Shown here: positions 1,617 through 64,000 of the stretch, in pieces
How the letters are laid out: the number at the start of each line of letters is the position of its first letter
Numbering within the stretch: position 1 is the first letter of the stretch
Assembly (NCBI GenBank): GCA_034620365.1
Contig: JAQGEQ010000255.1
Span: 806,001-870,000 of the forward strand
DNA length: 64,000 nucleotides
From: Pegea sp. RAD2-039
Lineage: Eukaryota; Chordata; Thaliacea; Salpida; Salpidae
Reading direction: 5' to 3'
Made by a program: the position numbers and the translations under genes
Notes under the pieces: generated by a model
Databases searched by the model: none
The model's input: only the letters and a program-made list of their open reading frames with translations
Told to the model about the DNA's origin: nothing

Positions 1617-2904
1617 AACCTCATTTTTTCAAATGTTCAATGAATGGTCTTTAAGGTGATTGATTGAGTTTAAACAAACAAAAAGTTAAAGCTGCGTTTG
1701 TGAGCATAAATCACATTCTAAATGGTTGGAAGCTAAGGACTTTATAGTGTATATATCTTATTTCTAATAGAATTTAGTTTAATTCATCTATAACTACCGC
1801 TAATAGTGATATGACCAAGCTTTCGTTTAGTAGAGCTTATTGATAGCTACCAACATTCCTGTACCAAAGACTTTACAAAAATCAAACATAATTATCTTTC
1901 TACAACTATTTCTTCCTATTATTGACCAAATTTTTGTTTAGTTAAAATATTCAATTAAGTAAAAACTCGTTATTACATTAAAATGCTTTTAAATAAGAAA
2001 AATCTCTTACAAAATATCAACAATTCAAAATTCTACTAGTCGATAGAAAAATTAAGTGTATTATATATAAAAATGTAAAAAATATGCAACACAATTATGC
2101 AAAGTTGAACAGCCTGTTCAGACATGTGTAAGAAAATTGAAAGAACGATGTCGTTGAAAATCGATCTCTGAAATTTAAAACTCATATCGTCAAAGACTCA
2201 TGTTTAAACTTACAAAAACATAATCTAAATGGGATAAAGTAATTAGCAACAAATTTACTGAACACAGATAGTCATAACCAGGTAAATAGTTATCTCAGAA
2301 GCTTTATTCCAGATCGGCGTTGAGACGCGTCAAATGCTGGGAGTTTCTCAAAAAAGAAAACTGCAAAAAATATAACGAGTTAAGATGTCACATTAAAATA
2401 TGATACTAAAAATAACTTTTTGGATTTTCACGAGTTACAATTAGAAATCTGTCAGGTACTTCACACCCTAAAGTGGTTAATGAGGTTTTATCGACTGCAG
2501 ACTAGTATTTGATGTTCAGAAATGTGCCTTAAAGTCGGTTAGGGTCTAGAAAATCATTTGATTGTTATATTAACAAGAAAATCTGCTCATAAATTATAGT
2601 ACTATTAGAGGCAACAATGACAGTATTTATTAGAGTTAAAGATTCAGTTTAATCATGTACTTTTCTAGAAAATGACAACTTTAACGAAACTACAAGGCTT
2701 ATATGATCTAAACCTGTTTACAAAGCCTATAAATTCTATCATAAAAAACTTTGCAAATCAAAATCAGTACCTCTATTGATATGTTTGCTGTAATTATCTT
2801 ACTTGTAATAAATACATAACCGTTTCTACTTTGGGGAAATTCCCACGAATGAAAACTGCAAAAAAAAATAATTTAAGATGTCACATTTAAATATGATACT
2901 AAAG
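1617..2904. other. Non-coding stretch with a short direct repeat
   Basis: No coding frame was recognised. A segment of about 65 bp at about 2358-2422 (CTGCAAAAAA... GATGTCAC... ATGATACTAA... ACTTTTTG) recurs at about 2850-2913, just at the entry to the larger duplicated block. Confidence 0.5.
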
Positions 2905-3932
2905 ATAACTTTTTGACATTACAATGTTTATAAGTAAGTTATCAGTGGAAGCATTTAATATCTGACTATGTCTATATCAGTTTTTAAAAGGTTAAATTGT
3001 AAATCATTGCATCATTATTTCCATTGAGACAGTTTCCATCAAATTTGTTGGTCATTTTACGAAGAAGATGTTCTATGTTGGATAAAATCACAGAAGAAAA
3101 AGAACAAATTTTCTAAAGGAAACAAAATCACAGACATTTATTCGATTAATTATTCAACAATTTTATAAGTCTCAGGCAGATATTTATGGATATCGATATC
3201 TCTATTTATGATTAACCCTTGATAATTTCTCTCTTTGGGCTATGTTGAAATCTATGTTTATACATTGATGTCTTTATACATAAACCAGCGCCAAAGTTAA
3301 TGACGTCATACTGATTCTAATTGCCTCTAAAACTCATTAGGCAAAAATCAAAAAATGGAAATAAATAAATTGGAACTATAACTTTCTGTCCACAAAAATT
3401 CCAGAAATCATAATTCTAATTTTTTTGACCATTTTTGTCACTTTAAAAACTTACCATTATTGATAGAGTTTCTTGGCTTTATTTCGTTTATATTTGATGA
3501 CGTCATTTGGTGAAGAAAGGCTGTAATGAAATTGATGAAATAGATTGATAAAGAAATTTTTAAATTACTTTAATTTCATTAGTTAAAGGTTATATGGCCT
3601 TAAATATTATTTTAGTTTAATCTAAAAATCTATCTATTTTTAAATGTTGAGAAAGTTTTTATCTCAAACCAATAGATGATATCACGTCATTATCAATTTA
3701 TCAAAAAGTTATATTTTTAATAAACTTATCTGCAGCCTTAGCCAAAAATAACATACTTATTCCAGTGGAACAGTTTTGATAATTTTAGTGCTGATTTAAG
3801 AGACTGCTTGAGTCAACCAAATTAATTATTTAAACCAATGAAAGTTTAAACCAAATTGCAATTAGAAATAACTTTTTAGTGTTTTGAAAATATTTACAAT
3901 TTAAATATCTTACCTAAATTCGACTTTGAAAC
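2905..3932 (+). repeat. Duplicated ~1 kb block, copy A
   Basis: This block matches 5083-6275 in order and orientation. Shared landmarks include TAAGTAAGTTATCAGT, CTGACTATGTCTATATCAG, TAATGACGTCATA, CTCTAAAACTCATTAGG and GATATCACGTCATTATCAA, ending near TTCGACTTTGAAAC. Copies differ by many substitutions and small indels, so the duplication is not recent. No terminal inverted repeats or coding frame were identified. It carries two palindromic TGACGTCA sites (3301-3308 and 3498-3505). A truncated SINE follows directly. Confidence 0.75.
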
Positions 3933-4290: not shown

Positions 4291-5082
4291 GTTTGTCTGC
4301 TCGGCTACATAAACTGGCTGGCTTGGAGAGTATAAATTTCCTGTATGGTCAATTACTGGATCTCTAAACATTCTACCCATCACATATCTGCATAGCACAA
4401 TTATACCCCGGGCAAAATAGCACATAACACTAAATTCCAAAAAAAATCGTTAGTGTTCCAAAATAGTAAAATTCAATCATACAAAATTGAAAATCTTTTT
4501 ATAAGTTTTGTACTGATCAATCTGTAAGATTTGAAAAAAAATTCTACACCTAATAAGATTTACACGTATTTTTGTATTTGTTTCTATGATTTATTTCTGT
4601 TTATTAGTTTTCAGAATTTTCAAAGAATCAGTTAATAAATGAAACTCTTATAAAACTGATGATTCTCTATAAGTGGTGCGACGGTCACGTGAAAATAGTA
4701 AGATGATGTTGGAGTTGATAAAAATGACAAAGTTATAAATATTGTTATAGGAATTTTTATCACTAACAACTGAACAAAAAATTGAATCTTTCTTTTTATA
4801 AAACCTATAAAGTAAATTCTCACAACATATAATTATGCAATTCTAGATTTCCTGCCATAATTTAATAAATAAACACATTTAGTTAAAAATAAAGAAATAA
4901 AAAAGTTCATTATAAAAGATTGTAGTTAAAATCGTTTAATTTAATACTTGTCAAACAAACATCCCTAATAAAAATTTTATGCTGATTATAATTAAGTAAC
5001 TTACCATTTACAAAATAAATCCCTAATTTTTTTAAATTGAATGTTTTTCATAAAAAAACACTGTTTAAATTTGATACTTGAA
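4291..5082. other. Non-coding spacer
   Basis: Nothing convincing is present. A 63-codon minus-strand frame at 4632-4823 is short and of random-looking composition, as expected by chance in DNA this A+T-rich. Confidence 0.4.
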
Positions 5083-6275
5083 AACATTGACAATACAATG
5101 TTAGTAAGTAAGTTATCAGTAGAATTATTTAACATCTGACTATGTCTATATCAGTTTTAAAAGGTGAAATGGCAAGTTATTCCATCATTGTTTCCATTGA
5201 GATAGTTCCCATCACATTTTGTGATTATTTTAATTAAAACATTTTGTTTGTTGAATCAAATCACCAAAAAGAATAGAACAGACTTTCAACAATAATATTA
5301 TAAATCACAGAAAAATATTTATGGATGTAGATATCTTTGTTTGTGATTGGTCTTTGATAACTCCTTTCTTTGGGCTATCTACAAATCTATATTTAAACAT
5401 TGATGAGTTTTTATATTAAACAAGCGCGGAAGTTAATGACGTCATATTGATTCTAATTGCCTCTAAAACTCATTAGGGAAAAATCAGAGAAATGATATCA
5501 AATAAACTTTGACTCTAACATTTTGACAAGAAAAATACCAGAAATGATAACTTTAACCATAAATTTTTAACCATTTTTGTCACTTTAAAAACTAACCATT
5601 AATCATAAGGTTTGTTGACTTTAGTTGGTTCATACTTGATGACGTCATTCAGTGACGAAAAGCTGCAATGAGCTTGACTGAGAATGATATATGAAGAATT
5701 TTTTTGATTTACTTTAATTTCATTATTTAAGGTTTTATGGCCTTAAAGTTAAACCTAATTTAGTTCAAGAAATTCATTATAATTTTTAGACTTAAGAAAG
5801 CTTCTATCTTAAAATAATAGATGATATCACGTCATTATCAATTTATCAAAAAGTTATCTTTTTAATAAACTTATGTGTAGCCTTAGCCAAAAATAACATG
5901 CTTATTCCAGTGGTACAGATTTCATAAATCTAATTTAAGAGTCTACCAAACTGATTATTTCAAACCCATAAAAATTTAAACCAAATTGTTATTAGAAAAA
6001 ACTTCTTAGTATTGTAAAAATATTTACATAGTCTTAAAAATACAATATTTTATGTAATTTAACAAAATTGTTCAATCCCTAAAAGAATGTATAGGATAAG
6101 AAAAATTGTAAAATTAAAATTGCCTTTATAACTAGTAAGTATAAGCTTTTCAAAATTGTGAAAAAGTTTTTTAAATTTGAAAACCGAATCGGAGTAACCC
6201 AATACTTTCACTGTAGCATTTTTTATAAGGAAAGAACTTGTTACACTAAAAAACTATAAGTTCGACTTTGAAACA
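5083..6275 (+). repeat. Duplicated ~1 kb block, copy B
   Basis: This is the partner of 2905-3932. It keeps both CRE palindromes (5437-5444 and 5640-5647) at the same relative positions. It is longer by about 200 bp near its 3' end, between the ATATTTACA and TTCGACTTTGAAAC landmarks, so one copy has an insertion or the other a deletion. Confidence 0.75.
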
Positions 6276-9849: not shown

Positions 9850-10275
9850 AAATGTCGTCGCTATGGCCGAGCAATTATGGCGATAAGCTGTGAGTTAGTT
9901 GAAATCTGCCGGCGCAGGTTCGAATCCAGCAGACGACGTTTTTAAATGTAGCGTTTTAGTTCTTTTAAGGTAGCTGTATACTTTTTTGCAACAACACTTT
10001 TAGTTTATCTTTGTGACGAAGTGGTTACCATACCTGCCTACCTAGCGATAGTTTTCGGGTTCGATCCTAAGTGTAAAGATATCAATGAAAACTTAAAATT
10101 CATATAAAATGCCTGACAGAAGAGACCCTCTCTGGTAAAATGACAATATTTTAGGAGATGCAAAACTTTGAGATGGAAAGTTAAAAGCCTGAGTTGAAAC
10201 ACGCAGCTTGCACTATACCCAATTTCGATGTTTCAGATTCTGTGACGCCAGATATGCGCAGCTGCATCAACTGAA
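9850..10275 (+). mobile_element. tRNA-derived SINE with two tRNA-like heads, near full-length
   Basis: The first head (9854-9938) folds as a class II (Ser/Leu-type) tRNA. GTCGTC pairs with GACGAC for six of seven acceptor pairs, an A-box-like TGGCCGAG follows, then a long variable region and the B box GGTTCGAATCC (9917-9927). One T-stem pair is broken. A T run follows it. The second head (about 10008-10075) has GACGAAGTGGTTA and the B box GGTTCGATCC (10058-10067). The body and tail (10105-10270) match the copy at 4.1-4.29 kb, including CACTATACCCAAT and the GACGCCAGATA end. The shared body argues for a mobile family rather than a functional tRNA gene. Confidence 0.78.
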
Positions 10276-16848: not shown

Positions 16849-18366
16849 TTAGTTAAGACCTTTTAATCAAACCTTTACATCAAGTAAGTCTAGACATCTT
16901 ATCAATATTTTTTTAAAGATTTTGTAGTATTTAAGGATGATATATCTGGTTGTGAACAACTAAGGTTGTCATAATATTCAGAATAGTTTAAAATTGTTTA
17001 TAAAATAAAAGCTTAACTTTTGAAACATCATAATATTTTTGCCAGAAGAGAAACATAAACAGAAATTGTTGTTAAAATTAAGCTTTATTAATAGGTTTGA
17101 TTAAATTTATTAAATTCTTAATTTTTTGATTGCTCAGTTTTTTATTTTATTTATTCTTTTCTTTTATTTTTTTTTGCTTTTCTGAAACAAGTTATTACTA
17201 TTGTAAAATTTATGATTGCATATATGTCTTCAAAGTCAACATTAATGTAGCTATCAAACACATTGAAAAAGTTTGTTGCTTTCCCATTAAAAAGAATAAC
17301 GTTTAAAACCTCTTAAATTATTAAAGTTTAAAAAGTTTAATTAAAATTTAGATATAACTTTTGTCTAAAGAGAAATGTTTTTAACGGGAAATTAAAAATT
17401 AAAAAAACAAAATTTATTTTGAACTTGTGAACTTTCAAAGTTACAAATACATAAAAAAATTCTGAAATTTCCTATAAAAACTAATTATGAAAAAGTTATA
17501 CACTAGCTTGAAATGAAATGAAATTGTTATGTGGTTAATTCTACATTGTAATCAATTAAACTATTTCCTTTATAAATTCAGATTTTTATCTAAAAAATTT
17601 ATTAGCTCTCTTATAAAAACAAATTAAAGTTATTTAAAGTGATTATTGAAGTGCTTGTTTTAAAACATATCAATTTATGCTCATATATCTATTTTCTTCT
17701 TGCGTAACCTCTGGTAATCATTGGAATTCTGAAGAACAGACCTTTATTTAACTTATTATTGTGTTGGTACAGTTTTATTTTGCAATAGCAAAAGTAAGTA
17801 CTTACAAAATTAAGTCTATTTTATTCTATCTAAAAGTTTTCAGTGTTATTCTTGGATTTTATTTTATACTGATGACACTATGTAGAAACAGTTGATTTGT
17901 ATTTTCAGGAAGCTGATAGATTTAGATCGTTTTGGAATTAGCATTCATTTTGAAATAGTCTACAGTCTAAAAAATATTTTATTTTCAACAAGCTTAATAA
18001 TAAGTTATATAAAAAATTTAGACTGAAGTTAAGTTTGCAACTAAAAAGTAAAAGATTGCATTATTTAATCACAGTAGTTAAACTTTAATTAATAAGTAAT
18101 AATTTTTCAGATCTACAATAGGTTTTTTAATGAGTACTGATTTACAATTTGTTCAAAAGAAAAAGAACCTAAGTTAGAAGCAGAATTGAAAGGATTTTTG
18201 GAAAAAAACTGTAAGTTACTTTGTCAAATATTTCCTTTGATCAGCCCTTGAGAATTATTAAAAAAAATATATTTTAATTATACTTTACATTAGTTGATTG
18301 TATATAATTTAATTGTCTGTAAAAAAAATCCAGAAGTCATCTAAAAATATTTTGTTTTTAATTTAG
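16849..18366. other. Stretch upstream of the exon-array gene
   Basis: The first coding exon of the following gene should lie here or further upstream but was not identified. A frame at about 18157-18215 reads EPKLEAELKGFLEKN and ends near GTAAGT. Its phase would create an immediate stop when joined to the exon at 18367, so it is not used in the model. Confidence 0.35.
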
Positions 18367-21300
18367 AAGGAACTAGCTGAATTTGTTGAAGAAAATTATC
18401 CTGATTGTGTGGAAAATACAGTAAGCTTTTACTTTTTTACAAGAAATCCTTAATGTTATCAGGCAATTAAGAGGTTTTACTGTTTTAAGTTTGATATAAG
18501 CATATTTTTATAGATTTAACTATATTTAACAGTCTAAAGAATATGATTTTGTAAACCAAATGTCTTTTTTTTTAATTTTTAGACAAAGTCACTAAAAGGT
18601 CATAGAGCAGCGAGTTTGGTTGAAATGGTAAGTTATAAAAAATACAATAAAACAAAAACTAATATTTTATTTCTTTTAAAATTTTATAGGTAAAAAAAAT
18701 TAAATAAAGTTTTAACTTGCTAAAATTAAATGCATGATGTGATTTCGTAAGCTTTCAGTTGCATCATTGTTTTTAGTTATTTAATTAAAAACTTAATTAT
18801 AATTGACCACTTTGTTTTAAGTAAATTGAAACTTAATACTTTCTTTTTTTGTAGTTCTAGTTTTGTTTTCTTGAAGCTTGATTAGTCTTATATGAAGAAA
18901 ACTAAAAAGCTTAATACAAATCTAACATTATAATAAAAACATAATTGTTAAAACTGATAATTTTTTAAAGTTTGAAAAAGATTAATGAAAATTAAATTTT
19001 TTCAAAGTTTAAGGGAGGTTTTTTGATGGATGAAAGTTCAAATCAGTCGTTAGTAAAAAAACCAAGAACTTCAGGAAACCTTAATAAAGATAAAGATGAT
19101 TTAGTTAACAGAGCAAGTGGGTCCAATTCCAAAAATAGGCTTTCAACGAAAAAAAAATCTTCTAAAAGTAAACCTAAAAATTTTTTGTTGAAACTGAAAA
19201 TATAAAATGGTTTTGTTGCAGGACTTTCAAATAAGGGTTCTAAGAAGTTGCGAGCAGATGAACATTCGTTGAATACTAAAGGTAAAAAAAAGAATAGATT
19301 CATTCTAGTGTAACAAAACAAGTATTGTACTTTCTTAGCGATGGAACTTCATCTTAAAAGTGATAAAACAAATTGGCAAACTTTTGACAGTTTTAATAAA
19401 AGTTCTTCAGAGTCCTCAGAAGAGTCAAACTTTGAAAAATTTGGATTATATAAAGAAGATAATATTTCAAACAAAGGTGAATACCATAAAAGTGATCCTA
19501 TTAAATAGGTTACTAAGGTATCTATAAAATATAATTGTTTTATTTTAGGATTTTCAAGTGCAGATACCTCGAATTCTGATAGTTCGTCTACTAATAAGGG
19601 TAAAAAAACAAATAAATTGATTACAGAATCTTTAAAACTAAGATTTGTATTTAATAGCAGAAGAACTGAATCCTGACGATGATGTACCAAATTGGCAATC
19701 ACCTGATAGCTTTTATGAAAACTCTTCTCCTTTCTTAAGAGAACCATTCATGAGAAAATTAAGATTGCCAAAAGAAATTCGTTGTTTAAATGATGGTGAA
19801 CATTTTAAAGAAATCCTTTTAACTTAATTTCTAAATATTCTATTATTGGTATTAATTTTATTTTAGGATTTTCAAGTGCAGACACCATTAAATCTGAAAG
19901 TTCGTCTACTAGTAAAAGTAAAAACACTAATAAATTTATTACAGAATCTTTAAAAGTAATATTTGTATTTACTAGCTGAAGAACTGAATGATGATGATGA
20001 TGTACCAATTTGGCGATCACCTGATAGCTTTTATGAAAATTCTTCTCCTTTCTTGAAAGATCCATTTATGAGAAAATTAGGATTGACTAAAGAAAATAAT
20101 TCTTTAAATGAAGGTGAATATCTTAAAAGCAATCCTTTTAAATAGATTGCTAAAAATTCTTTTATTGGTATTTGTTTTATTTTAGGATTTTCAAGTGCGG
20201 ATACCATGAAATCTGATAGTTCGTCTATTAGTGAAAGTAAAAGCACTAACAAATTGATAACAGAATCTTTAAAACCAAGATTTGTATTTAACAGCAGAAG
20301 AACTGAATGCTGACGATGATGTACCAATTTGGCAATCATCTGATAGCTTTTATGAAAACTCCTCTCCTTTCTTGAAAGATCCACTTATGAGAAAATTAGG
20401 ATTCACTAATGAAAATAATTCTTTAAATGAAGGTGAATATCTTAAAAGCAACCCCTTTAACTAAATTGCTAAAGATTCTTTTATTGGTATTTGTTTTATT
20501 TTAGGATTTTCAAGTGCAGACACCTTGGAATCTGAAAGTTCGTCTATTAGTGAAAGTAAAAAAAACTTTAATAAATTGATTACAGAATCTTTAAAACCAA
20601 GATTTGTATTTACTAGCAGAAGAACTGAATGACTGACGATGATGTACCAATTTGGCAATCACCTGATAGCCTTTATGAAAAAGTTCAGAATCTTTAAAAC
20701 TTTGTATTTACTAGCAGAAGAACTGAATTGACTGATGTAAAGATCACACCTTTATGAGAAAATCCACTTATGAGAAAATTAGGACTAATGAAAATAATTC
20801 TATAAACGAAGGTGAATATCTTAAAAGTAATCCATTTAACTAAATTGCTAAAAATTCTTTTATTGGCATCTGTTTTATTTTAGGATTTTCAAGTGTGGAT
20901 ACCATGAAATCTGAAAGTTCGTCTATTAGTGAAAGTAAAAAAATACTAATAAATTGATTACAGAATCTTTAAAACCAAAATTTGCATTTACTAGCAGAAG
21001 AACTGAATCCTGACGATGATGTACCAATTTGGCCATCACCTGAGAGCCTTTATGAAAACTCCTCTCCGTTTTTGAAAGATCCACTTATGAGAAAATTGGG
21101 ATTGACTAATGAAAATAATTCTATAAGTGAAGGTGAATATCTTAAAAGCAATACTTTTAAATAGATTGCTAAAGATTCTTTTATTGGTATTTGTTTTATT
21201 TTAGGATTTTCAAGTGCAGACACCTTGGAATCTGAAAGTTCGTCTATTAGTGAAAGTAAAAAAACACAAATAAATTTTTTACAGAATCCTTAAAACTAAG

Positions 21301-22700
21301 ATTTGTATTTAACAGCAGAAGAACTGAATGCTGACGATGATGTACCACTTTGGCGATCATCTGATAGCCTTAATGAAAACTCTTCTCCGTTCTTAAGAGA
21401 ACCATTCATGAGAAAATTAAGATTGCCAAAAGAAATTCGTTGTTTAAATGAAGGTGAAAATTTTAAAGAAATCCTTTTAACTAAATTGCTAAAGATTCTT
21501 TTGTTGGTATCTGTTTTATTTTAGGATTTTCAAGTGCAGATACCATGAAATCTGAAAGTTCTTCTATTAGTGAAAGTAAAAACACTAATAGATTACAGAA
21601 TCTTTAAAACTAAAATTTGTATTTAACAGCAGAAGAACTGAATGCTGACGATGATGTACCAAGTTGGCAATCATCTGATAGCTTTTATGAAAACTCTTCT
21701 CCTTTCTTAAGAAATCCATTTATGAGAAAATTAGGTTTGACTAATGAAAATAATTTTTTAAATGAAGGTTAAAATTTTAAAAGAAATTCTTTTTACTAGC
21801 TTGCTAAAGAATGTTTTATTGGTATTTGTTTTATTTTAGGATTTTCAAGTGCAGACACCATTAAATCTAATAGTTCGTCTACTAGTAAAAGTAAAAAAAA
21901 ACAAATAAATTGATTACAGAATCCTTAAAACTAAGATTTGTATTTACTAGCAGAAGAACTGAATGATGAGAATGATGTACCAATTTGGCAATCAACTGAT
22001 AGCTTTTATGAAAACTCATCTGGGTTTTTATCTAACGATTCAGCTCTTAACTTAGTTGGATTTGATCAAGAAAACACACTTTCTAAAAGTAATTTTTTTT
22101 AAGTAGTTTATTGAGTTCTTTTGAAAAACTAATCTAATCTAAATTAGTCTAGGTGAAACCAAGACAAGTTTATTCTGGTTAAGTAAAGCTAATATTTCAT
22201 TTTTTTAGTAGATAAATTTAAAGAAGAAAATACTAAGACAATCCACCAAGCATCTGAATATGTTTATGGAAATTCCTCTGAGCTTGTAGTAAAAGATTCA
22301 GCGTTTACAATGAATGGATTTGTTAAAAATAAGAAGAATTTTAACAAAAATGGATTTTCTAAAAGTATTTCTAACAATTAGTTTGTAAAAGATTGCCTAC
22401 AAAATTGATTGTTCTTTTTTCAGAAGACTCAAACAATGATACTAAAATGATCAGAACTGGTGAAAATTCTTTAATTATTAATGAAGGTGAAATTCAAATA
22501 ATGTATAACTGGTTTTAACAAGCCTAATAATTGATTTTTAAGCAGAACTGAATGAGGGATATGCTAAAACAACTAGACAAGAAACTAAATGTTCTAGAGC
22601 AAAGTCTTCTGGATTATCATCAAAGAAAATATTTCTTAAAAAACACAAGAAAGAAACCAATCATAGAAACGAAAAATCTAAGAAATCGAAGCAATTTTGA
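18367..22700 (+). CDS. Ser/acidic-rich nuclear-type protein with tandem exon array (5' end missing)
   Basis: Leading exons are 18367-18420, 18583-18627, 19014-19167, 19222-19281 and 19339-19476. Then come alternating 51-nt A exons and 138-nt B exons from 19549 to 22088, and final exons 22209-22364, 22424-22486 and 22543-22700 (TGA). The first two introns are phase 0; every later intron is phase 1. From ATG 19026, with the broken B4 skipped, it encodes about 696 residues. The start is not fixed, because 18367-18627 reads in frame into it (KELAEFVEENYPDC, then TKSLKGHRAASLVEM). Basic clusters near the N-terminus (KKPRTS) and at the end (KKIFLKKHKKE, KSKKSKQ) look like nuclear signals. The repeats are Ser/Asp/Glu-rich with no folded domain recognised. 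Treacle and NOLC1 also build acidic-serine repeats from duplicated exons, but that is analogy only. Confidence 0.75.
19549..22088 (+). repeat. Tandem array of eight two-exon cassettes
   Basis: A exons (51 nt each): 19549-19599, 19867-19917, 20186-20236, 20505-20555, 20884-20934, 21205-21255, 21525-21575 and 21840-21890. B exons (138 nt each): 19658-19795, 19976-20113, 20295-20432, one broken copy from 20617, then 20995-21132, 21316-21453, 21630-21767 and 21951-22088. The cassette period is about 315-380 bp and the introns are duplicated too. A exons encode FSSADT...SSS, and B exons encode EELN.DDDVP.W followed by DSFYENSSPFL and MRKL. Exon 19339-19476 (NWQTFDSFNKSS) has the same 138-nt length and is a diverged founder. 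Because all exons are multiples of three in phase 1, copy number can change without a frameshift. Confidence 0.85.
20617..20872 (+). pseudogene. Broken B4 exon with partial internal re-duplication
   Basis: After EELND an extra base gives an in-frame TGA where the other copies continue into DDDVP. About 60 bp later the sequence jumps back into a second shortened intron/B start (around 20684-20735), which again meets TGA. It then continues into a diverged MRKL end and the usual GAAGGTGAAT donor. Skipping it joins A4 to A5 in frame, so the gene can tolerate the loss. Confidence 0.7.
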
Positions 22701-29569: not shown

Positions 29570-31760
29570 TAATGGAACGTCATAAACTGATTTTTAATTC
29601 TAGGCCATTAAATATAAAAGTACTAAATGTATTATTTAAGTTTTCTTATTACTTTTTTGAATAGTTTTTTTCACATCTGTTAAAGTGTTTTTGTTTATAC
29701 AGATTTTTTTTAAATATTCATGAGTTTTTTCATTTTAAAACCAAAATCATTATTTTGCTTAAATCAGCATATATCTTTGTGATATCTTTTCTTCAATTGA
29801 TTAGATAAGAGTTATTTTAGAGTTTGACTATTTTTTAATAACTTTTAATCATTTTATTAAAAGAATATTTGTACTTATTTAAAGATATTTTGAATTTTAT
29901 CTATTTAATTAAATAGTGTTTACTATTTTTAAACTAAAGTTTTATGAATTATGTATAGAATTCTTGATAATTCAATTATACTTAGAGGTAAGTTTTTTGA
30001 ATAAATAGAATTTCATTACATTTCCTAAATCTTTGATAATCATACCTTTAGATAATGATGAAATTTTTCACATTTATACATATATTGAAACTAAATTATA
30101 ATTTTTATTAATACAATTATTGATGTTGATTGAAATGTTTGATGGTGATGATTTTAGATATATTTGAATTAAAAAGTATTTATTTGTTATAAGATACAAA
30201 AAATATGTTTATGAAAGTTGATATGTCAAAATATAATAATTGATTTAATAAAAGTAATTTTTGCTTTTTAAACAAGATTTTTAGTTAAACTTTTTATCTT
30301 CTGAAATTTATATTTGGTTTTATATTTAGATTTATTTTTTCATTTAGGTTATAAGTTAGTAACTTCTGGACTAGTTCAAACATTTGCAGTGAGAGTTTCT
30401 ACATCATTTTCTAAATGGATTAACATTTCTTGTCATTTCTAAACAAATTGTTGTTAATTCAATCATTTTTCTACAAATAATGATAAGGTAAGTGATAATT
30501 ATGATAGCAAATGGTAGTGTTTTTTTCTCAATTTCCTTTGTTAATGTGGTTTTTATCATCTTTCTTTTAAGGATGTTTATTGTAAAGTTGTTTTTCTTGT
30601 ATCAGTTTGGTTACAAACTATATTGAGAGATTTAAATTAATTATAACTTAGGAGTCTTTTTTTGAAAATGAACATTTGATTAAACAGAATTTAGTATATT
30701 GGTTTTTATATCATCAATGTTCTGAAAAATCTTTACTGTATGTTTCTTAACACCCTTTACACTTTTTTTGAAAACCTTTGAATGATAGTTGTTAAGTTAT
30801 TTATTTAAAACTTAAGTTGCATTAACTATAATCTATTTCAAATTAAGTTGGTATATTTGTCTTTTTGTTATAGCTGGTGGAGAGAAATTATTAAACATTT
30901 TTTGATTTTTAAATGACTTTTTAGCTAAAGACAAATTCATCAATATATAATATTATTTGTGAAGGTTATTTGAAAACTAGTCTACTAACTGCTGATAAAA
31001 ATGTTTTTAAAATTACTCATTGTTTATCATAAGATTTAATAAATTCATAACACACTTAGCAGTTTTCAAACAAGCATCAACTAAAAAAAAAAACTAATCA
31101 AGATTTTGAATGAAATATCAGAAGAAGAAAAACTTTTTCTAGTTTTGTTAAGTCACAACTACTTATAATGTATGGCTACAAATAATTATCTTTACAGCTC
31201 TAAAAGGCAAATGCAGAACAATATGACACCCTTAAATAATAAAAACGTCCTAAGTATAAACAAATAATGACTAATTTGCATGAATACTTTTTGCTTGTTT
31301 TATCTATTAATATTAAAATTCATTAAACTTCAAGTAAATATAAAGAATATTATGTGTAGCTTAAATTTTTACTAATGTTGCCTCTTCATTTTTTTCATCA
31401 AATCTAATGATACATCATTTCATATTTAGATATAAGATACTTTAGTTTAGCTGATAGATAAAATTGAGTTTTCAAACTCTTCAAAATTAGTTTGTATTAA
31501 AGTTTTGTTTTAATTATATCGTTTATCTTAACTGATTTAGTTTGCAGATCAAATGGATCAAATCGAAACTTCAAGAGGTTTTATTAGTAAGTTAAAACAA
31601 CATTAAAAGTAAAATATAAAAATATCAATTTATAAAACTCTTTCAGAAACCACTTTCTAGAGTAAATTGAAGGACAAAAACTATTCCTTTTATAAGATAT
31701 ACTATATACAGGTAATTTATAATCCAAAATCTAACTATAATGCATATAACTATACCGCAG

Positions 31761-31917
31761 AGAATCTTTAAGAAAACCAACTTTATCCAAATACTACAAA
31801 TTAAACCAGTTGGAAAATAGAAAAGGAGAAAGTAAAGGAAAACAACAAAATGGAGTTGCAAATGAAACTCTAAATATAAAAAAGTATTTTATATTTTTGT
31901 TCACTTTGGTTGTTTGG
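31761..31917 (+). CDS. Exon-like block with membrane segment, U1 copy
   Basis: The block runs from the acceptor TATACCGCAG to the donor TGG|GTAAGC. It is 157 nt, open in one frame, and encodes ESLRRPTLSKYYKLNQL, a Lys-rich stretch and the hydrophobic YFIFLFTLVVW. Joined in phase 0 to the next acceptor (CTTTGTAG, exon from about 32108) it ends NNQIETKTSKKLYRKEM plus stop. An upstream exon in the required phase was not found. The preceding block (31650-31711) has a one-base deletion relative to U6 and is closed in all frames, so this gene copy may be dead. Confidence 0.35.
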
Positions 31918-33021
31918 GTAAGCTTTTTAATATCTTCAAATTTTATTTGTTTGTTTTTCTGACTCCATACAAAGATTTTCACTTTTTCTAATTATAATTG
32001 AAGTCAGATTATTATTTATATAAGTAACAACTTCACTTAAATTCATTCAGATATTTGTCAGATTTAATTTTAAAAAACATTCTATTTAAATTACTTATAC
32101 TTTGTAGAATAATCAAATTGAAACAAAAACTTCAAAGAAATTGTACAGAAAAGAGATGTAGCTGTCAACTCAGCTGTATCTTTGAAAGAAAATGTTAAAT
32201 ACAACCAACAGTAAGTAAAATATGAATAAAGAACTTCTTCTACTTACAAATCATTATTTTACTACAAACTTTCATACAGCAGAAGGACGTCAGTATAGAT
32301 CTACAGACACAAGTGATGCCAAATACAGAACATCTTACAAATCATCCCGAGCTAAAACTCCAATTCAAGTCTAAAGTGTGAAGAAAATGGTTGACTTCTT
32401 GTAATTTGACAATGTCAGAGACAAGTATCAATCAAATGTTCAAGCAAAGCAGAGATGATATTATCAATCCTCTAAAAGTCATCTTCAAAAAAAGATTTAA
32501 AGTTCTAGTCTTGAGATCGTTGACCATGCGGGTTCCAAATTTGCTAATCTAAGCACTATTCATAACAAATACGTTTTGTCAATTAATACAAATAATTTAA
32601 ACAATTATTAAGATCTGATATTCATAGATTAAGGTTTTATACATATCACTAATTATTCATAATTTCCGTAGAATCAGAAAAAAATTTTAAATGTCTGAAG
32701 TGACAGATTTATTTAGTAATTTTATTATAAACTTGCTAAATGATTTATAACAATCATAATGCAAACTATTACTATAGCGACTAAAAAATCATCTTTTAGC
32801 TCAATTTTCTATCCTCAGAGTGACTCAATAAAGATATACAGACACAAGTGATGGCATCTGCAGAGTGTCTTGCTGATCATTTCAAGCAGAAACTCTGATT
32901 GAAACCTAAAATTTAAAGAAAAATTTGCAGAAAAAAGTTTAAAGTTGACTTCTTGCAAACTGATTCAAGTATCAATAAATTCTTTAAGCAAAAATTGCAG
33001 ATAGAGATACTGATGTCATAA

Positions 33022-33192
33022 ATTTCTAACAAAAAAAAGTTGTTATTATCTAGTAGTCGACCTTACATTTTAAGGGTTTCACAATCTCCAAATAATCCCA
33101 TTTATTATATAGATGAAAAATATGCTGCTCTGTTTCTCTTTTACATCTTTAGATTTGATCTTTTAATTTTTTATCAAGCTCTATTGCTGTAA
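33022..33192 (+). CDS. Conserved open frame of the array, U1 copy
   Basis: Open between stops and encodes SSRPYILRVSQSPNNPIYY, then FLFYIFRFDLLIF. It lacks an ATG, so if real it is an internal or last exon. It corresponds to the frames in U2-U6 with many amino-acid changes but no frameshift. Confidence 0.3.
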   Translation: MSNKKKLLLSSSRPYILRVSQSPNNPIYYIDEKYAALFLFYIFRFDLLIFYQALLL

Positions 33193-33760
33193 CAGTTTCT
33201 TTCTTTGAAATTAAAGCTTGTTTGATTTGTGTTCTTTAAAAAATGATTCAAATGATTATTTCATATCAATTAGTTTGATTCAGTATCATTTCATCTTATC
33301 AAAGCTTCATTTAAACAGTAAACTGCTTAAAATATGGTTGGGATGCCTTAATTTATATACACTGCAGCAATTAATAATTTTTTTTGTATAAAATCAAACA
33401 TACAAGCACAATTCATCAAAATTGGTTATTTAAATCTGTGATTTTGTTATATATATTAAGGTTTACGACAGTTTGAAAACAAATTCAAAACACAGCGTCT
33501 TATCGAATCCCTTAAAAGATCTTAATGAGTATTGGAATGAATCATTTAACTCGGTAGATTTGTACCAATGGTAATACAAACTGTTACTACAGTGTCTAGA
33601 TCATTCTTTCTAAAGATTAAATTGCAATAAAGATACAAATCGTAAAAAATTAAATCACAAACTTATTTACATACTAATTAATTTGAAATATTTTGTTTCA
33701 ACTTTGTGTAAATGCTGTGGATAAAATTAGACTTTCTAGAAATTTGTTTTAATTGCAACA

Positions 33761-33800
33761 GAATACCGCTGCAGTTGATATATAAGATGACTCATCAAAT
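33761..33800 (+). promoter_or_regulatory. ACCGCTG / TATATAAG / AP-1 box (P1), first of eight
   Basis: The order is ATACCGCTGCA, TTGATATATAAG, ATGACTCATCAAAT. Identical or nearly identical boxes have their TGACTCA at 33788, 38706, 40610, 42851, 47639, 49543, 55154 and 61900. TATATAAG is a plausible TATA box, and TGACTCA is the classic AP-1 (bZIP) site. Promoter function is inferred from motif grammar and conservation. Confidence 0.5.
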
Positions 33801-34871
33801 AAACACAATTCAGTATAGAGCTGAACAATTTTAAACAATTGAGTGTATAGAGCTGAATTTGTTAAATTAAAAGAAATAATAGAATTATTAGTTGTTATAT
33901 TACATCAAAATTAAAATAAAGCAACACATAGCCAAAAACGAAGAAATACAAGAAGTACTATCTACTATACTAAGTTAAACATGATAACATACTTTTCTGC
34001 CGAAGTTTATGACTTACCACTTAAAGATTAAGTTGATGGTTATCGCACAGAGCAATAGTATTTCGTTTTTACCTTATTCGAACTGCTCTTTCAATAAAAC
34101 TCATTTTTAGTAATAAAATCAGTTGTAGATTTAAAATTTAATTGCCATGTTATATTGGTGTTACCATTGTTTTAATATATGTAAAAAGAAAGCTATTATA
34201 AGTATTTAAATTATTACACTTAGTTCATGTGCTTTGCACTAAGTAGACCAAAACAAGTTTGTGTATTAATAATTCTAAATGCCAAATCCAAATTTTTTCG
34301 AGAACTCGTTGGTATGCTAATTAATTAAGAGCACTAACTTGACAATGCTTCTTACTCGATAAAAGACAAGAGAAAAGGCATCATAAACATTCCTTTGTAT
34401 ACTTTGTTTACTATTCATTAAACAGAACGTTAAAAAATAAATATATGTCGAATTGAAAAAATTATTAAACCTTTTAAAATTTGCTTTTGAATTTTTTTAC
34501 TAATGATGTTGTAGAGATGTAGCAAATTTTAAATCTTTCTGTACTAATCAAACAAAAATTCCTAAATTGATTTTTTCAGTTTGTAGATTTGTACAAAAAA
34601 TAATATTTTATCAATTGCAGCACAAATCACAAATCACAAAAAAAATCATGAAACCAAATACTACAATGTCATAAAATTTTAATTAAATATTTCAAAAGAA
34701 CAAGGTAAAAGTTGAGATAATATTAAGTTAAAAAGTTAGTTTTGACATTAACTGTTTAACTAATAATCTATTAATTGTTAACTGTTCGTTTAAAATAAAT
34801 TTAAACTGTACTATTATACTACTATTATAGTAATACTACACTTTAAAGAGATTTACTTCAGATAAATAAAA

Positions 34872-35060
34872 AACCACTGTATCTTATAATCCAAATGAGT
34901 CACTAAATGCTAATAATCAAATAATTTGGATGAATTAAAGAAGTAAGTGAAAAGGTCATTAAATACAAATGAAATCAAATCTAAACAAGCTAACTGTAAT
35001 AAGTCATAAATGAAAATCTTATCGTGACGAAGCAGGATATGACGTCATAGACTCTTCTTC
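34872..35060 (+). promoter_or_regulatory. ACCGCTG / TGAGTCA box (P2) plus CRE palindrome, first of seven pairs
   Basis: ACC(G/A)CTGTAT...AATCCAAATGAGTCA is followed 144-149 bp later by GGATATGACGTCATA. Pairs (TGAGTCA start / TGACGTCA start) are 34896/35040, 39538/39687, 43678/43826, 48471/48620, 50646/50790, 56268/56412 and 63009/63153. An eighth CRE at 54230 has lost its P2 partner in a deletion. TGAGTCA is the same AP-1 site as in P1 read from the other strand, and TGACGTCA is the full CRE, so both are bZIP targets. Confidence 0.5.
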
Positions 35061-36478
35061 TGGTTGACTTTTAGTGCTGACAACTTGATGATTCAGTTTT
35101 AATTATTAAACAATATAATGAAGGATAGAGTATCATTTTTAAGAATAAAAGGATGTTTAGCTATTAATAAACTTATTAGTTTGACAAGGTTGAAATTAAG
35201 TCATAAACCGCTTTTTTGGTGTACTGTTAACGCTGATGATTTAACAATTCATTTTTCATCTTAAAGATGATGGTGAAGAATATATTTTCAATTTTATACA
35301 TCAAATGAAAACTGAACTAAAGATAACTTAAATAGCACATAAATGTTCTTAAAATTTTTGGTACTTTAAAAAAAATTTTAAAAATACGTTTCATTACTTT
35401 TGTTAGAGATTACAATTACTACAATAAATATGAAAAAATACTTTATATAAGAACAACAAATTAAGTTAAGCAAAGTATAATCATAAAGAACAATCCTACT
35501 CTGAAAGATAAGTAATATTAATTTATAGAAAATAAAATTTATCTATACTTATTAGTAGGAAATTATTGATTTATTTCAGAAGCACTTAATACTAATATCT
35601 TTGTCTCTTTTAAAATTATGTTTCAGAAACCTCCTAAGTAGGTAAGATCTCAAATTTCTGCCGATAATGGTTAAACGATTTTTTAATAACTGCTTTTGTT
35701 TTTTGAAAAGTTTAAAATCACCATAAAACAACTTTTACAATAATTAATAGTAGCTATTAAGACATCTATATCATTTATATTGCAATTTATTGCAATGCTT
35801 GTAAACAAATTGTTGTTAAATTACTTAATATTTCTAGGCCACTAAAAATAAAAGTACTAATAGTTTAATTTACTACTATAGTATGTCATTTTCCCTATCA
35901 ACTAAGTATTTGTTTTCATACAATTTTTTATAATGGTTTGTAATCTGGTAGTATATTCTTTATGATTTTGCTAAGACTAAAAATTGAATATTAGAACTCT
36001 ATTTTAAAGTTAAATAATTGAGAAATCAGGTAATTATTGAATTATTATTAATTATTTAATGATATAAGTATTTATTTAAATATAAGTCAATAGTTTTGAG
36101 AGTTAATATTTTGTCCTTTTAACTTAAAAAATGTTTTTTCTTATGAATTTTTCCTATAGAGTTCTCTTTAAGAATTATTCTACCTAAATAAAAAGTATTT
36201 ATGTTTTTTAATATTGAAATTTGAGATATATTTTAATTTATTTTACTTCATTCTTAGTTATTTCATATTCCTAAATTTCTAATAATAAAGCAAATTTTGT
36301 ATCACACTTTTATATAGTTATAAATTATTTCAAAAGTATACTTAAAGATTTATAAATTTTAACTAAATCTTTAAATAGTATAATTAATAATATTAAACTT
36401 ATCTTTACATTTAGAAAGGATAATTATATTTAAATTTTTTGTTTGTTTAAGTTTTACTATTTAGTAATTATCTAATGA

Positions 36479-38140: not shown

Positions 38141-38392
38141 TTTAAGAATGTCAGAGTCAAGTATCAATCAAATCTTCAGGAAAATACTGAAGACCGTGAC
38201 GATAGTACTGATATTTTAAACAAAGATGAAAAATGTTTTATATCTAGTAGTCGACCTTACATTAGAAGGGTTTCACAATCACCAAATGATCTCATATATC
38301 AAACAGATGTAAAAAATGGTTCTGCGTTTCTCTTTTACCTGGTGAGGTTTGATCTTTTAATTTTTTGTCGAGATCTTTTGTTGAAGGTTTAA
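38141..38392 (+). CDS. Conserved open frame of the array, U2 copy
   Basis: Open for 84 codons up to its stop, starting after an acceptor-like TTTAATTTAAG. It encodes VKYQSNLQENTEDRDDSTD, KDEKCFISSRPYIRRVSQSP and GSAFLFYLVRF. A GTGAGG after FLFYL could be a donor. The composition is coding-like (mixed acidic and basic). No relative is recognised. Confidence 0.4.
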   Translation, partial: FKNVRVKYQSNLQENTEDRDDSTDILNKDEKCFISSSRPYIRRVSQSPNDLIYQTDVKNGSAFLFYLVRFDLLIFCRDLLLKV

Positions 38393-58045: not shown

Positions 58046-59875
58046 ATTAAAAAGTTCAAAATGAAAGTGAATGCGTTTAGTGTCTTGAGTTCATGTATTA
58101 TTTATATAATATTGACTCATTGTCTTTTATTGTGATTAATTAACAACCTATTGTTGATTCAATGTTACCTTTTGTTGCAAATTTAATTATGAACAAATAA
58201 GTATCAAGCTTGATAATAGCTGAAAGTATTTCATTTTCAACTTCTTTGTTTTATGTGGTTTATATCATCTTTCTTTTAAGGATGTTTGTTTTATAGTTGC
58301 TTCACTGATACCTGTTTGTTCATAAACTTTACTCAAAAATTTATAATTTAGTTTAAATTTGACACAATGTCCTATAAACAGATTATAGAATATTATATTT
58401 ATACTATTTATGAAACTTTGCTTATTTAAAAGTTTTGATATTCTTTTACCTTTTTCTTGAAAATAACTCTTAGCTGATTGTTGTGAAGTTAGTTTTTTCA
58501 ACCTATGAGTTAGATTTGCTGTTATCTCTTTTCTACAATTCAATTGAATTAATTTTCTTTTTAAAATAGTTGTTAGTAAGACAACAATGAAGGTTTTGGT
58601 TTTTTAATTGACTTTTAAAGCTAAAGACAGATTCATCAATATCTAATAAGTTTGTTGAATGTTAGTTGAAATGTATTCTGCAAACTGCTGGTAAACTTAT
58701 GTTTAATGTTACTTTATATTGATCATAAGATTTAACAAAATTATAACACACCTTACATTTGTCAAACAACCATAACTAAGTAAAAGATCTAATGAAGATT
58801 TTAAATGAAACATCAGAAGAAGACTTATAACTTGTTCTTTCAAATGTTTTTTAGTCATACCAGCTTATACAACACATGGCTGATGGTGAACAATTATATG
58901 ATAGTAAAAAGCGAATACCGAAGAATAAGATCTCAGAAAATTGGAATTTCTTCAGTATGATCAAGTGGTTAATATTGTGAGTTAAACTCTTTTATTGTTG
59001 TATTCATTAATAATAAGTTGAATTAGTTTTAATGTTATTTTATGTATGGATTTATAACTCTTCAAAGTTGATTTATGCTATTCATTTGATTTAATTATAA
59101 ATCTGCTGATAAAAATTTTTTTAAGATTATTCGCTGTTTATCATAAGATTTAATAAATTCATAACACACTTAGCAGTTTTCAAACAAGCATCAACTAAAA
59201 AAAAAACCTAATCAAGATTTTGAATGAAATATCAGAAGAAGAAAAACTTTTTCTAGTTTTGTTAAGTCACAATTACTTATAATGAATGGCTACAAATAAT
59301 TATCTTTACAGTTCTAAAGGGCAACTGCAGAACAATATGACACCCTTAAATAATAAAAACGTCCTTAGTATAAGTAAATAATGACTAATTTCCATGAATA
59401 CTTTTTGCTTGTTTTATCCATTAATATTAAAATTCATTAAACTTCAAGTAAATATAAAGAATATTATGTGTAGCATAAATTTTTTCTATTGTTGCCTTTT
59501 CATTTTTTTCATCAAATCTAATGATATATCATTTCATATTTAGTTATAAGAGAATTTAGTTTAGCTGAAAGATAATATTGAATTTTCAAACTCTTCAAAA
59601 TTAGTTTGTATTAAAGTTTTGTTTTAATTATATCGTTTATCTTAACTGATTTAGTTTGCAGATCAAATGGATCAAATCGAATCTTCAAGAGGTTTTATTA
59701 GTAAGTTAAAACAGCATTAAAAGTAAAATATAAAAATATCAATTTATAAAACTCTTTCAGAAACCACTTTCTAGAAGTAAATTGAAGGACAAAAACTATT
59801 CCTTTTATAAGATATACTATAAACAGGTAATTTATTATCCAAAATCTAACTATAATGCATATAACTATACCGCAG

Positions 59876-60032
59876 AGAATCTTTAAGAAGACCAACTTTA
59901 TCCAAATACTACAAATTAAACCAGTTGGAAAATAGAAAAGGAGAAAGTAAAGGAAAACAAAAAAATGGAGTTGCAATTGAAACTCTAAATATAAAGAAAT
60001 ATTTTATATTTTTGTTCACTTTGGTTGTTTGG
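59876..60032 (+). CDS. Exon-like block with membrane segment, U6 copy
   Basis: Same 157-nt length, acceptor and donor as 31761-31917, with a few replacements (KGKQKNGVAIETLNIKKYF). The preceding block (about 59757-59823) keeps one frame open (PLSRSKLKDKNYSFYKIYY) that is broken in U1, but its phase does not match this exon. The next exon, from about 60224, ends NNQIETKTSMKLYRKEM in phase. Confidence 0.35.
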
Positions 60033-61131
60033 GTAAGCTTTTTAATATCTTCACATTTTATTTGTTTTTTTTTTCTGACTCCATTCAAAGATTTTCACTT
60101 TTTATAATTATAATTGAAGTCAGATTATTATTTATATAAGTAACAACTTCACTTAAATTTGTTCAGATATTTGTCAGATTTAGTTTAAAAAAACATTCCA
60201 TTTAAACCACTTATACTTTGTAGAATAATCAAATTGAAACAAAAACTTCAATGAAATTGTACAGAAAAGAGATGTAGCTGTCAAGCAGTTGTATCTTTGA
60301 AAGAAAATGTTATATACTACCAACAGTAAGTAAAATATGAATAAAGAACTTCTTCTACTTATAAATCATTATTTTACTACAAACTTTCATACAGCAGAAG
60401 GACGTCAGTAAAGATCTACAGACACAAGTGATGCCAAATGCAGAACATCTTACAAATCATCCCGAGCTAAAACTCCAATTCAAGTCTAAAGTGTGAAGAA
60501 AATGGTTGACTTCGTGTAATTTGACAATGTCAGAGACAAGTATCAATCTTCAAGCAAAAAGCAGAGATGATATTATCAATCGTCTAAAAATCATTTTCAA
60601 AAAAAGATTTAAAGTTCTAGTCTTGAGATCGTTGACCATGCGGGTTCCAAATTTGCTAATCTAAGCACTATTCATAACAATTACTTTTTGTCAATTAATA
60701 CAAATAATTTAAACAATTATTAAGATCTGATATTCATAGATTAAGGTTTTATACATATCACTAATTATTCATAATTTCCGTAGAATCAGAAAAAATTTTA
60801 AATGTCTGAAGTGATCGATTTATTTAGTAATTTTATTATAAACTTGCTTAATGATTTATAACAATCATAATGCAAACTATTACTATAGCGACTAAAAAAT
60901 CATCTTTTAGCTCACTTTTCTATCCTCAGAGTGACTGAATAAAGATATACAGACACAAGTGATGGCATCTGCAGAGTGTCTTGCTGATCATTTTAAGCCG
61001 AAACTCTGATTGAAACCTAAAATTTAAAGAAAGATTTGCAGAAAAAAGTTTCAAGTTGACTTCTTGCAAACTGATTCAAGTATCAATAAATTCTCAAGCA
61101 AAAATTGCAGATGGAGATACTGATGTTATAA

Positions 61132-61302
61132 ACTTCTAACAAAAAAAAGTTGTTATTATCTAGTAGTCGACCTTACATTTTAAGGGTTTCACAATCACCA
61201 AATAATCCCATTTATTATATAGATGAAAAATATGCTGCTCTGTTTCTCTTTTACATCTTTAGATTTGATCTTTTAACTTTTTATCAAGCTCTTTTGGTGT
61301 AA
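61132..61302 (+). CDS. Conserved open frame of the array, U6 copy
   Basis: Same 171-nt span as the U1 copy (33022-33192), open between stops and reading PYILRVSQSPNNPIYY and FLFYIFRFDLL. Confidence 0.3.
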   Translation, partial: TSNKKKLLLSSSRPYILRVSQSPNNPIYYIDEKYAALFLFYIFRFDLLTFYQALLV

Positions 61303-63940
61303 CAGTTTCTTTCTTTGAAATTAAAGCTTGTTTGATTTTCTGTTCTTTAAAAAATGATTTAAAAGATTATTTCACATCAAATAGTTTGATTCAGTATCAT
61401 TTTATCTTATCAAAGCCACATTTTAACAGTAAACTGCTTAAAATATGGTTGGGATGCCTTAATTTATATACACTGCAGCAATTAATAATTTTTTTTGTAA
61501 AAAATCAAACATGCAAGCACAATTCATCAAAATTAGTTATTTAAATCTGTGATTTTGTTATAAATATTAAGATTTACGACAGTTTGAAAACAAATTCAAA
61601 ACACAGAGTCTTATCGAATCCCTTAAAAGATCTTAATGAGTATTGGAATGAATCATTTAACTCGGCAGATTTGTACCAATCGTAATACAAACTGTTACTA
61701 CAGTGTCTAGATCATTCTTTCTAAAGATTAAATTGCAATAAAGATACAAATCGTAAAAAAATTAAATCGTAAACTTATTTACATACTAATTAATTTGAAA
61801 TATTTTGTTTCAACTTTGTGTAAATGCTGTGGATAAAATTAGACTTTCTAGAAATTTGTTTTAATTGCAACAGAATACCGCTGCAGTTGATATATAAGAT
61901 GACTCATCAAATACACACAATTCAGTATAGAGCTGAAAAATTTTAAACAATTGAGTGTATAGAGCTGAATTTGTTAAATTAATGAAGCTAACAGAAATAT
62001 TAGTTGTTATATTACATCAAAATTAAAATAAAGCAACACATAGCCAAAAACGAAGAAATACAAGAAGTACTATCTACTATACTAAGTTAAACATGATAAC
62101 ATACTTTTCTGCCGAAGTTTATGACTTACCACTTAAAGACTAAGTTGATGGTTCTCGCACAGAGCAATAGTATTTCTTTTTTACCTTATTCGAACTGCTC
62201 TTTCAATAAAACTCATTTTTGGCAATAAAATCAGTTGTAGATATAAAATTTAATTGCCATGTTATATTGGTATTACCATTGTTTTAATACATGTAAAAAG
62301 TAAGCTATTATAAGTATTTAAATTATTACACTTAGTTCATGTGCTTTGCACTAGGTAGACCAAACAAGTTTGTGTATTAATAATTCTAAATACCAAATCC
62401 AAACTTTTTTCGAGAACTCGCTGGTATGCTAATTAATTAAGAGCACTAACTTGACAATGCTTCTAACTCGATAAAAGACAAGAGAAAAGGCATCAAAAAC
62501 ATTCCTTTGTATACTTTGTTTACTATTCATTAAACAGAATGTTAAAAAAATAAATATATGTCGAATTGAAAAAATTATTAAACCTTTTAAAATTTGCTTT
62601 TGAATTTTTTTACTAATGATGTTGTAGAGATGTAGCAAATTTTAAATCTTTCTGTACTGATAAAAAAAAATTCCTAAATTGATTGTTTCAGTTTGTAGAT
62701 TTGTACAAAAAATAATATTTTATCAATTGCAGCACAAATCACAAATCACAAAAAAAAATCATGAAACCAAATACTACAATGTCATAAAATTTTAATTAAA
62801 TATTTCAAAAGAACAAGGTAAAAGCTGAGATAATGTTAAGTTAGAAAGTTAGTTTTGACATTAACTGTTTAACTAATAATTTATTAATTGTTAACTGTTC
62901 GTTTAATAAAAATTTAAACTGTACTATTATACTACTATTATAGTAATACTACACTTTAAAGAGATTTACTTCAGATAAATAAAAAACCACTGTATCTTAT
63001 AATCCAAATGAGTCACTAAATGCTAGTAATCAAATAATTTGGATGAAATAAAGAAGTAAGTGAAAAGGTCATTAAATACAAATGAAATCAAATTTAAACA
63101 AGCTAACTGTAGTAAGTTATAATTGAAAATCTTATCGTGACGCTGCAGGATATGACGTCATAGACTCTTATTCTGGTTGACTTTTAGTACTGATGACTTG
63201 ATGATTCAGTTTTAATTATTAAACAATATAATGAAGGATAGAGTATCATTTTTAAGAATAAAAGGATGTTTAGCTATTAATAAACTTATTAGTTTGACAA
63301 GGTTGAAATTAAGTCATAAACCGCTTTTTTGGTGTACTGTTAACGCTGATGATTTAACAATTCATTTTTCATCTTAAAGATGATGGTGAAGAATATATTT
63401 TCAATTTTATACATCAAATGAAAACTGAACTAAACATAACTTAAATAGCACATAAATGTTCTTAAAGTTTTTGGTACTTTAAAAAAAATTTAAAAAATAC
63501 GTTTCATTAATTTTGTTAGAGATTACAATTACTACAATAAATATGAAAAAATACTTTATATAAGAACAACAAATTAAGTTAAGCAAAGTATAATCATAAA
63601 GAACAATCCTACTCTGAAAGATAAGTAATATTAATTTATAGAAAATAAAATTTATCTATACTTATTAGTAGGAAATTATTGATTTATTTCAGAAGCACTT
63701 AATACTAATATCTTTGTCTCTTTTAAAATTATGTTTCAGAAACCTCCTAAGTAGGTAAGATCTCAAATTTTTGCCGATAATGGTTAAACGATTTTTTAAT
63801 AACTGCTTTTGTTTTTTGAAAAGTTTAAAATCACCATAAAACAACTTTTACAATAATTAATAGTAGCTATTAAGACATCTATATCATTTATATTGCAATT
63901 TATTGCAATGCTTGTAAACAAATTGTTGTTAAATTACTTA

Positions 63941-64000
63941 ATATTTCTAGGCCACTAAAAATAAAAGTACTAATAGTTTAATTTACTACTATAGTATGTC
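63941..64000 (+). repeat. Start of array unit U7, cut by the window end
   Basis: GGCCACTAAAAATAAAAGTA and the following bases match the start of U2 (from about 35828) exactly in register, so the array continues beyond the window. Confidence 0.75.

Follow-up and report, generated by a model that had tools for sequence, protein, structure and literature searches.

The window analysed here is a 64,000-nucleotide (nt) stretch of the Pegea sp. RAD2-039 genome (G000:C58:806001-870000), with a guanine plus cytosine content of about 25%, and contains at 19549-22088, on the plus strand, eight tandem units in which a short A exon alternates with a longer B exon inside a single gene, referred to below as the array gene. 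The question raised by this locus is how one exon pair came to be repeated eight times and what the lengthened protein, if it is made, could be used for. Comparison with paralogues in the same genome indicates that the array descends from one ancestral module, and sister genes devoid of any such cassette are found there as well. The explanation favoured here, to which an even chance is given, is that tandem duplication of one symmetric exon pair lengthened an acidic, probably disordered and probably nuclear protein in which the B modules would serve as docking sites. The mechanism itself, expansion of an exon pair in tandem, is already known in evolution, and the protein family is apparently unnamed. 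A preliminary description made from the letters of the window alone had reached a similar interpretation, which is partly supported by the results below.

Structure and origin of the exon array

In the output of Tandem Repeats Finder the array is split into two entries, of periods 319 and 321. In the typical unit a 51-nt A exon is followed, after an intron of 57-64 nt, by a 135-nt B exon, and a further intron of 71-72 nt closes the unit. All eight A exons are exactly 51 nt long (A1, 19549-19599; A2, 19867-19917; A3, 20186-20236; A4, 20505-20555; A5, 20884-20934; A6, 21205-21255; A7, 21525-21575; A8, 21840-21890), each with tattttag directly 5' and gtaaaa directly 3', and an in-frame alternative donor lies 6 nt earlier in A2 and A8. 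The B exons of units 1, 3, 5, 6, 7 and 8 measure 135 nt when the distal acceptor (NAGCAG/AAG, cut at the slash) is used (B1, 19661-19795; B3, 20298-20432; B5, 20998-21132; B6, 21319-21453; B7, 21633-21767; B8, 21954-22088, the second half of which is unlike B1-B7), and would measure 138 nt with the proximal NAG, the frame being kept under either acceptor. In unit 2 the distal AG is lost and B2 (19976-20113, TAG acceptor) is 138 nt long. The tandem acceptor NAGCAG ends most A-B introns, and one residue may be included or omitted there with no change of frame. The fourth B exon (B4, 20620-20811) is broken: one extra base leads to an early stop, and an inserted stretch of about 60 nt, including a copy of the junction between intron end and B start, brings its length to 192 nt, which is divisible by three. 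Usable exons are therefore eight of eight for A and seven of eight for B. The preliminary description had given an alternation of 51-nt and 138-nt exons, which holds for the A exons and not for most of the B exons, and the idea that the whole exon set is intact is contradicted by the stops and insertion of B4.

The listed exon borders of the array gene have AG upstream and GT downstream, and all are of phase 1 within the array. Adjacent exons are homologous and lie in register with their introns (eight A, eight B, introns alignable), with the same phase at both ends and a length divisible by three in every A exon and in the seven usable B exons, so that borders, phases and intron alignment confirm the proposed duplication of symmetric phase-1 exons together with their introns. 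Tandem duplication of symmetric (1-1) exons permits whole exons to be gained or lost without effect on the frame. The array is like other such cases in that whole exons and introns lie head to tail, all in phase 1, and unlike them in that the unit is a two-exon cassette and that sister genes range from 0 to about 10 copies. According to the proposed mechanism, a phase-1/phase-1 pair made of an A linker and a B module would have been copied in tandem with its introns up to eight times, and phase 1 at both unit ends would have allowed gain, loss, gene conversion or skipping with the frame preserved; the broken unit 4 would need to be skipped in splicing. Four of the eight A-B introns have a length that is not divisible by three and four contain in-frame stops, as do all eight introns that follow B1-B8. 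Splicing is thus needed, since retention of any A-B or post-B intron shifts the frame or stops translation.

Older, diverged units of phase 1-1 are found on both flanks of the array, namely A0 (19222-19281, 60 nt) and B0 (19339-19476, 138 nt) on the upstream side, B9 (22209-22364, 156 nt) and A10 (22424-22486, 63 nt) on the downstream side. To place the modules, the B modules of the array and its flanks except B4 were scored, with shuffled controls, against the four modules (p0-p3) of P1, an intact paralogue described below. All seven intact array modules (B1, B2, B3, B5, B6, B7 and B8) gave their best score with p1, the second module of P1, while B9 scored best with p3, the fourth, and B0 with p0, the first, narrowly over p1 (50 against 46). 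Since the array modules all match p1 and the flanks match other modules, one ancestral cassette was multiplied to eight between conserved neighbours.

The way in which the units resemble each other was also considered. A4 and A6 are identical, no other exon being identical among units; units 1 and 6 have in common an identical tract of 62 nt spanning B and the following intron, and A2 and A8 share their donor pattern. Such mosaic sharing among non-adjacent units is better fitted by unequal exchange and gene conversion than by simple serial doubling. An incorrect copy number in the assembly, either collapsed or inflated, in which case eight would be a number of the assembly only, is considered improbable. 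Tandem arrays are error-prone in assembly, and the end of contig C190 repeats 4 kilobases (kb) of C122, the contig that carries the paralogues, at 99.2% (the C190 copy may be allelic to C122); units that differ segment by segment by 3-23%, with no identical exon save A4/A6, nevertheless make a simple collapse or stutter unlikely.

Paralogues, reading frame and coding constraint

The genome (387 contigs, 105.7 Mb) was searched with the window DNA, the unit protein, the N-terminal protein and the P1 protein as queries, and beyond the window relatives turned up on two contigs only, C122 and C190 (63 matches at E up to 0.5 in one of the searches). At C122:314000-365900 lies an inverted repeat whose arms span at least 23.7 kb at 97% identity and which holds ten family members, several of them decayed: two copies of P1, two of P2, and S1 to S6. 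P1 encodes 407 amino acids (aa) in 11 exons, with three A-B cassettes and the exon order of the array gene, and is intact in both copies (C122:321139-323602, minus strand; C122:356271-358737, plus strand); its exon E4 additionally contains a B-like module, hence the four modules p0-p3. P2 is decayed, the copy examined (P2a) having lost GT at three donors and having stops in its frames. In S1, S2, S4 and S5, which encode 169 aa in five exons, E4 is spliced straight to the last exon with no cassettes; S6 stops early, at 164, and S3 is without E2-E3. Counted from E4 to the last exon, the short genes thus have 0 cassettes, P1 has 3 and the array gene about 10, so that the earlier suggestion of a variable copy number is borne out as regards paralogues inside one genome; the cassette-free sister genes, like the out-of-frame first exon treated below, had been overlooked. 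A possible 9-nt exon (AG, GATATGNTG, GTAATG) between E3 and E4 is conserved in P1, P2, S1, S4 and S6, and its counterpart was not found in 18561-18800 of the array gene.

Further members were sought at a 16-mer, GATTTTCAAGTGCAGA, on C1 and at near-matches on C3, C6, C48 and C245, all of which were rejected: inspection of the C1 and C3 sites revealed similarity past GATTTTCAAGTGCAGA at chance level only, and at C6, C48 and C245, judged by protein searches only, these gave no match. A single unit, run against viral contigs and not against other animal genomes, gave no relative there, so that no absence outside this genome is claimed. Within the genome, spliced-leader patterns of nematode (SL1) and rotifer type were absent at up to 2 mismatches; Col_cuticle_N and Chitin_bind_4 had no match, and neither had their controls.

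Upstream of the array, exons E2 (18367-18420, 54 nt) and E3 (18583-18627, 45 nt) are of phase 0 with AG/GT borders and are kept in the paralogues, and E4 (19008-19167, 160 nt, phase 0 to 1) is equal in length to E4 of S1, S2, S4, S5 and S6; the last exon (22546-22700) encodes a lysine-rich tail and ends with TGA. When E1 and unit 4 are left out, the spliced frame from E2 to this TGA is open over 2136 nt, that is 711 codons and the stop, while the remaining two frames of the same spliced sequence contain 51 and 135 stops. The product, if made, would consist of a conserved N-terminal segment, acidic serine-rich modules and the lysine-rich tail.

Several observations weigh against a functional lengthened protein. 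E1 (18130-18210), the counterpart of the first coding exon of the paralogues, is out of frame as assembled: in an alignment with five relatives (P1, P2, S1, S4 and S6) its ATG is offset and one more base is present at its end, the frame between being shifted, and reading from the ATG runs into a stop after 15 codons. Either this reflects an assembly error in A-rich runs, or translation starts elsewhere, or the gene has decayed, and an intact product is unproven because of it. In the array, exon and intron divergence are about equal (0.12 against 0.11-0.13), and the synonymous changes, 14 against 9.8 expected, are not in significant excess (P 0.087), so that constraint on the array is weak.

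These observations are what would be expected if the array gene were a decaying pseudogene, deprived of its start exon and of one unit, in which the array expands neutrally, an alternative considered unlikely yet serious. It would also agree with the broken B4 and with the decay of other family members (P2 twice, S3 without E2-E3, the early stop of S6). The 711 codons open across about 22 exons speak against it, as do the substitutions among units 1, 2, 3, 5, 6 and 7 (15 pairs, the broken unit 4 and unit 8 with its different half being excluded), in which none of 52 distinct changes is a stop against 4.1 expected (P 0.009) and the pooled ratio of nonsynonymous to synonymous change (pN/pS) is 0.66. 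Moreover, indels are absent from the A exons and from the seven intact B exons, the A-B introns varying between 57 and 64 nt. For E2-E3 of the array gene the corresponding substitution-rate ratio (dN/dS) is 0.27-0.48 against P1 and five short genes, over 33 codons and at a high dS (0.66-1.16). Between P1 and the five short genes it is 0.34-0.59 over E1-E3, and among six pairs of short genes 0.51-1.22. From these ratios, coding constraint appears visible but mild, and strongest outside the array.

Protein properties and resemblance to known systems

As the preliminary description had it, the array part of the protein is rich in serine (20.2%) and in aspartate plus glutamate (19.1%). Its net charge is -42 over 435 residues, and the C-terminal 51 residues of the protein carry a net charge of +11. 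Lysine plus arginine make up 31.4% of the tail in the array gene, 30.0% in P1 and 35.7% in S4. Each B module carries one W..DSFYENSS motif with an acidic lead, and in a charge-hydropathy comparison the array and P1 fall on the disordered side (-0.14). A disordered protein is therefore probable from its composition, and a nuclear one is likewise probable.

Homology searches gave no convincing relative, in agreement with the earlier statement that the repeat family was not recognised. A profile of the B module had no match in PDB or family searches up to E 10, the first 151 residues of P1 gave nothing convincing in PDB (best E 0.83), an N-terminal profile gave nothing convincing either (best E 0.37), and NCBIfam had no match. 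In Pfam, only the whole 711-aa product matched, to PF01409 (phenylalanyl-tRNA synthetase core; 24.9 bits, cut-off 19.8), with no such match in P1 and S4. This identity was rejected. Unit pairs 1+2, 6+7 and 3+5 were tested before units 7+8, the matched stretch; two to four array units scored 14.8-15.6 bits, under the cut-off, and the matched stretch alone 12.7 bits over 70 of 246 positions. Because that stretch alone falls under the cut-off, the match is regarded as the sum of weak similarities accumulated across the repeats. One match, at E 4.7, was given by a reversed stretch of the array protein.

Among known proteins, treacle (TCOF1) and Nopp140 come closest in layout. In treacle, as described in one published account (PMC9133508), exons encode central repeats with casein kinase 2 (CK2) sites and the C-terminal region is lysine-rich; the array gene likewise has exon-encoded acidic serine-rich modules, and a lysine-rich C-terminal tail is present in it as in P1 and S4. 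Unlike those proteins, it is devoid of lysine-rich spacers between the acidic modules and carries the W..DSFYENSS motif instead. A phospho-scaffold of that style, with kinase-target acidic modules encoded by separate exons, together with a basic tail, has little probability as an explanation. Beyond the shared layout, it is favoured by the CK2-type sites pooled over the array, 29 against 19.8 in shuffled sequence (P 0.01). This enrichment was rejected, the pooled count representing copies of one unit, and per unit the P values are 0.09-0.60 (seven units); in the P1 modules the number of CK2-type sites is below the shuffled expectation (5 against 7.2). In addition, the LisH domain of the treacle/Nopp140 N-terminus had no match in P1 up to E 5 or in S4 up to E 10, in searches where HMMER filters may drop weak matches, and no other Pfam domain was found in P1 or S4. 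The phosphorylation motif suggested in the preliminary description thus finds no support.

Docking by the B modules is preferred over that scaffold. Most likely, each B module would constitute one weak docking site and the cassette number would set the valency, although multivalent binding by the array protein is a conjecture. A scaffold whose docking depends on repeat number is described for Spc105/KNL1 in a published account (PMC7292645), to which the resemblance is one of principle only: by pattern, no MELT-like motif is present in seven array units and four P1 modules. That neither this pattern nor the profile searches identified a known binding motif counts against the docking proposal, as does the failure of kinase-site enrichment in the single units. 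Treacle and KNL1 may accordingly be taken as models for a possible mode of action and not as the family of the array gene.

Two further systems were compared. SP7-like proteins of mycorrhizal fungi, according to PMC11333574, form a gene family with variable repeat number and a shared intron position, and in this they are like the present family. They are, on the other hand, secreted and fungal, whereas P1 begins MKPKSKGSSKEEE with no signal peptide evident by eye, and the genome of the array gene has at least 57 homeodomain matches, which points to an animal. The repeats of nematode epicuticlin, as described in PMC9612446, sit inside one exon and do not match the exon-wise repeats of the array.

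A more far-reaching version of the docking proposal, held only tentatively and rather doubtful, is that of a lineage-restricted multivalent nuclear protein family in which cassette number, and with it valency, would be under diversifying pressure and the broken B4 would be obligatorily skipped. The cassette-free form (about 169 aa) and the three-cassette form (407 aa) are both located in the large inverted-repeat amplicon, and the form with ten or so cassettes in the same genome. Should the array gene be expressed, as we infer, the family would offer a natural series with 0, 3 or about 10 cassettes between common ends, suited to relating repeat number to the behaviour of disordered proteins. 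It would also illustrate clearly how frame-neutral duplication, together with mosaic exchange, can bring a single exon pair to eight copies. If, on the other hand, the gene has decayed, the array would be an ordinary by-product of exon duplication.

Other features of the window

Elsewhere in the window, ARAGORN predicts a tRNA-His at 9856-9939 on the plus strand, yet no Rfam family reaches its gathering score anywhere in the window. Positions 2886-3898 and 5064-6028 form a direct repeat, about 1 kb long and 76% identical, and two pieces on the plus strand, 416-877 (E 4e-8) and 1324-1491 (E 5e-8), have matches to the Ulp1/C48 peptidase family. From 30400 to 64000 the window holds a nest of segmental duplications. 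Many of the pairs are 85-97% identical (30989-35887 and 59103-64000, for instance, at 96.6%), and copies of one exon-like reading frame lie at 38141, 42253, 47040 and 53603.

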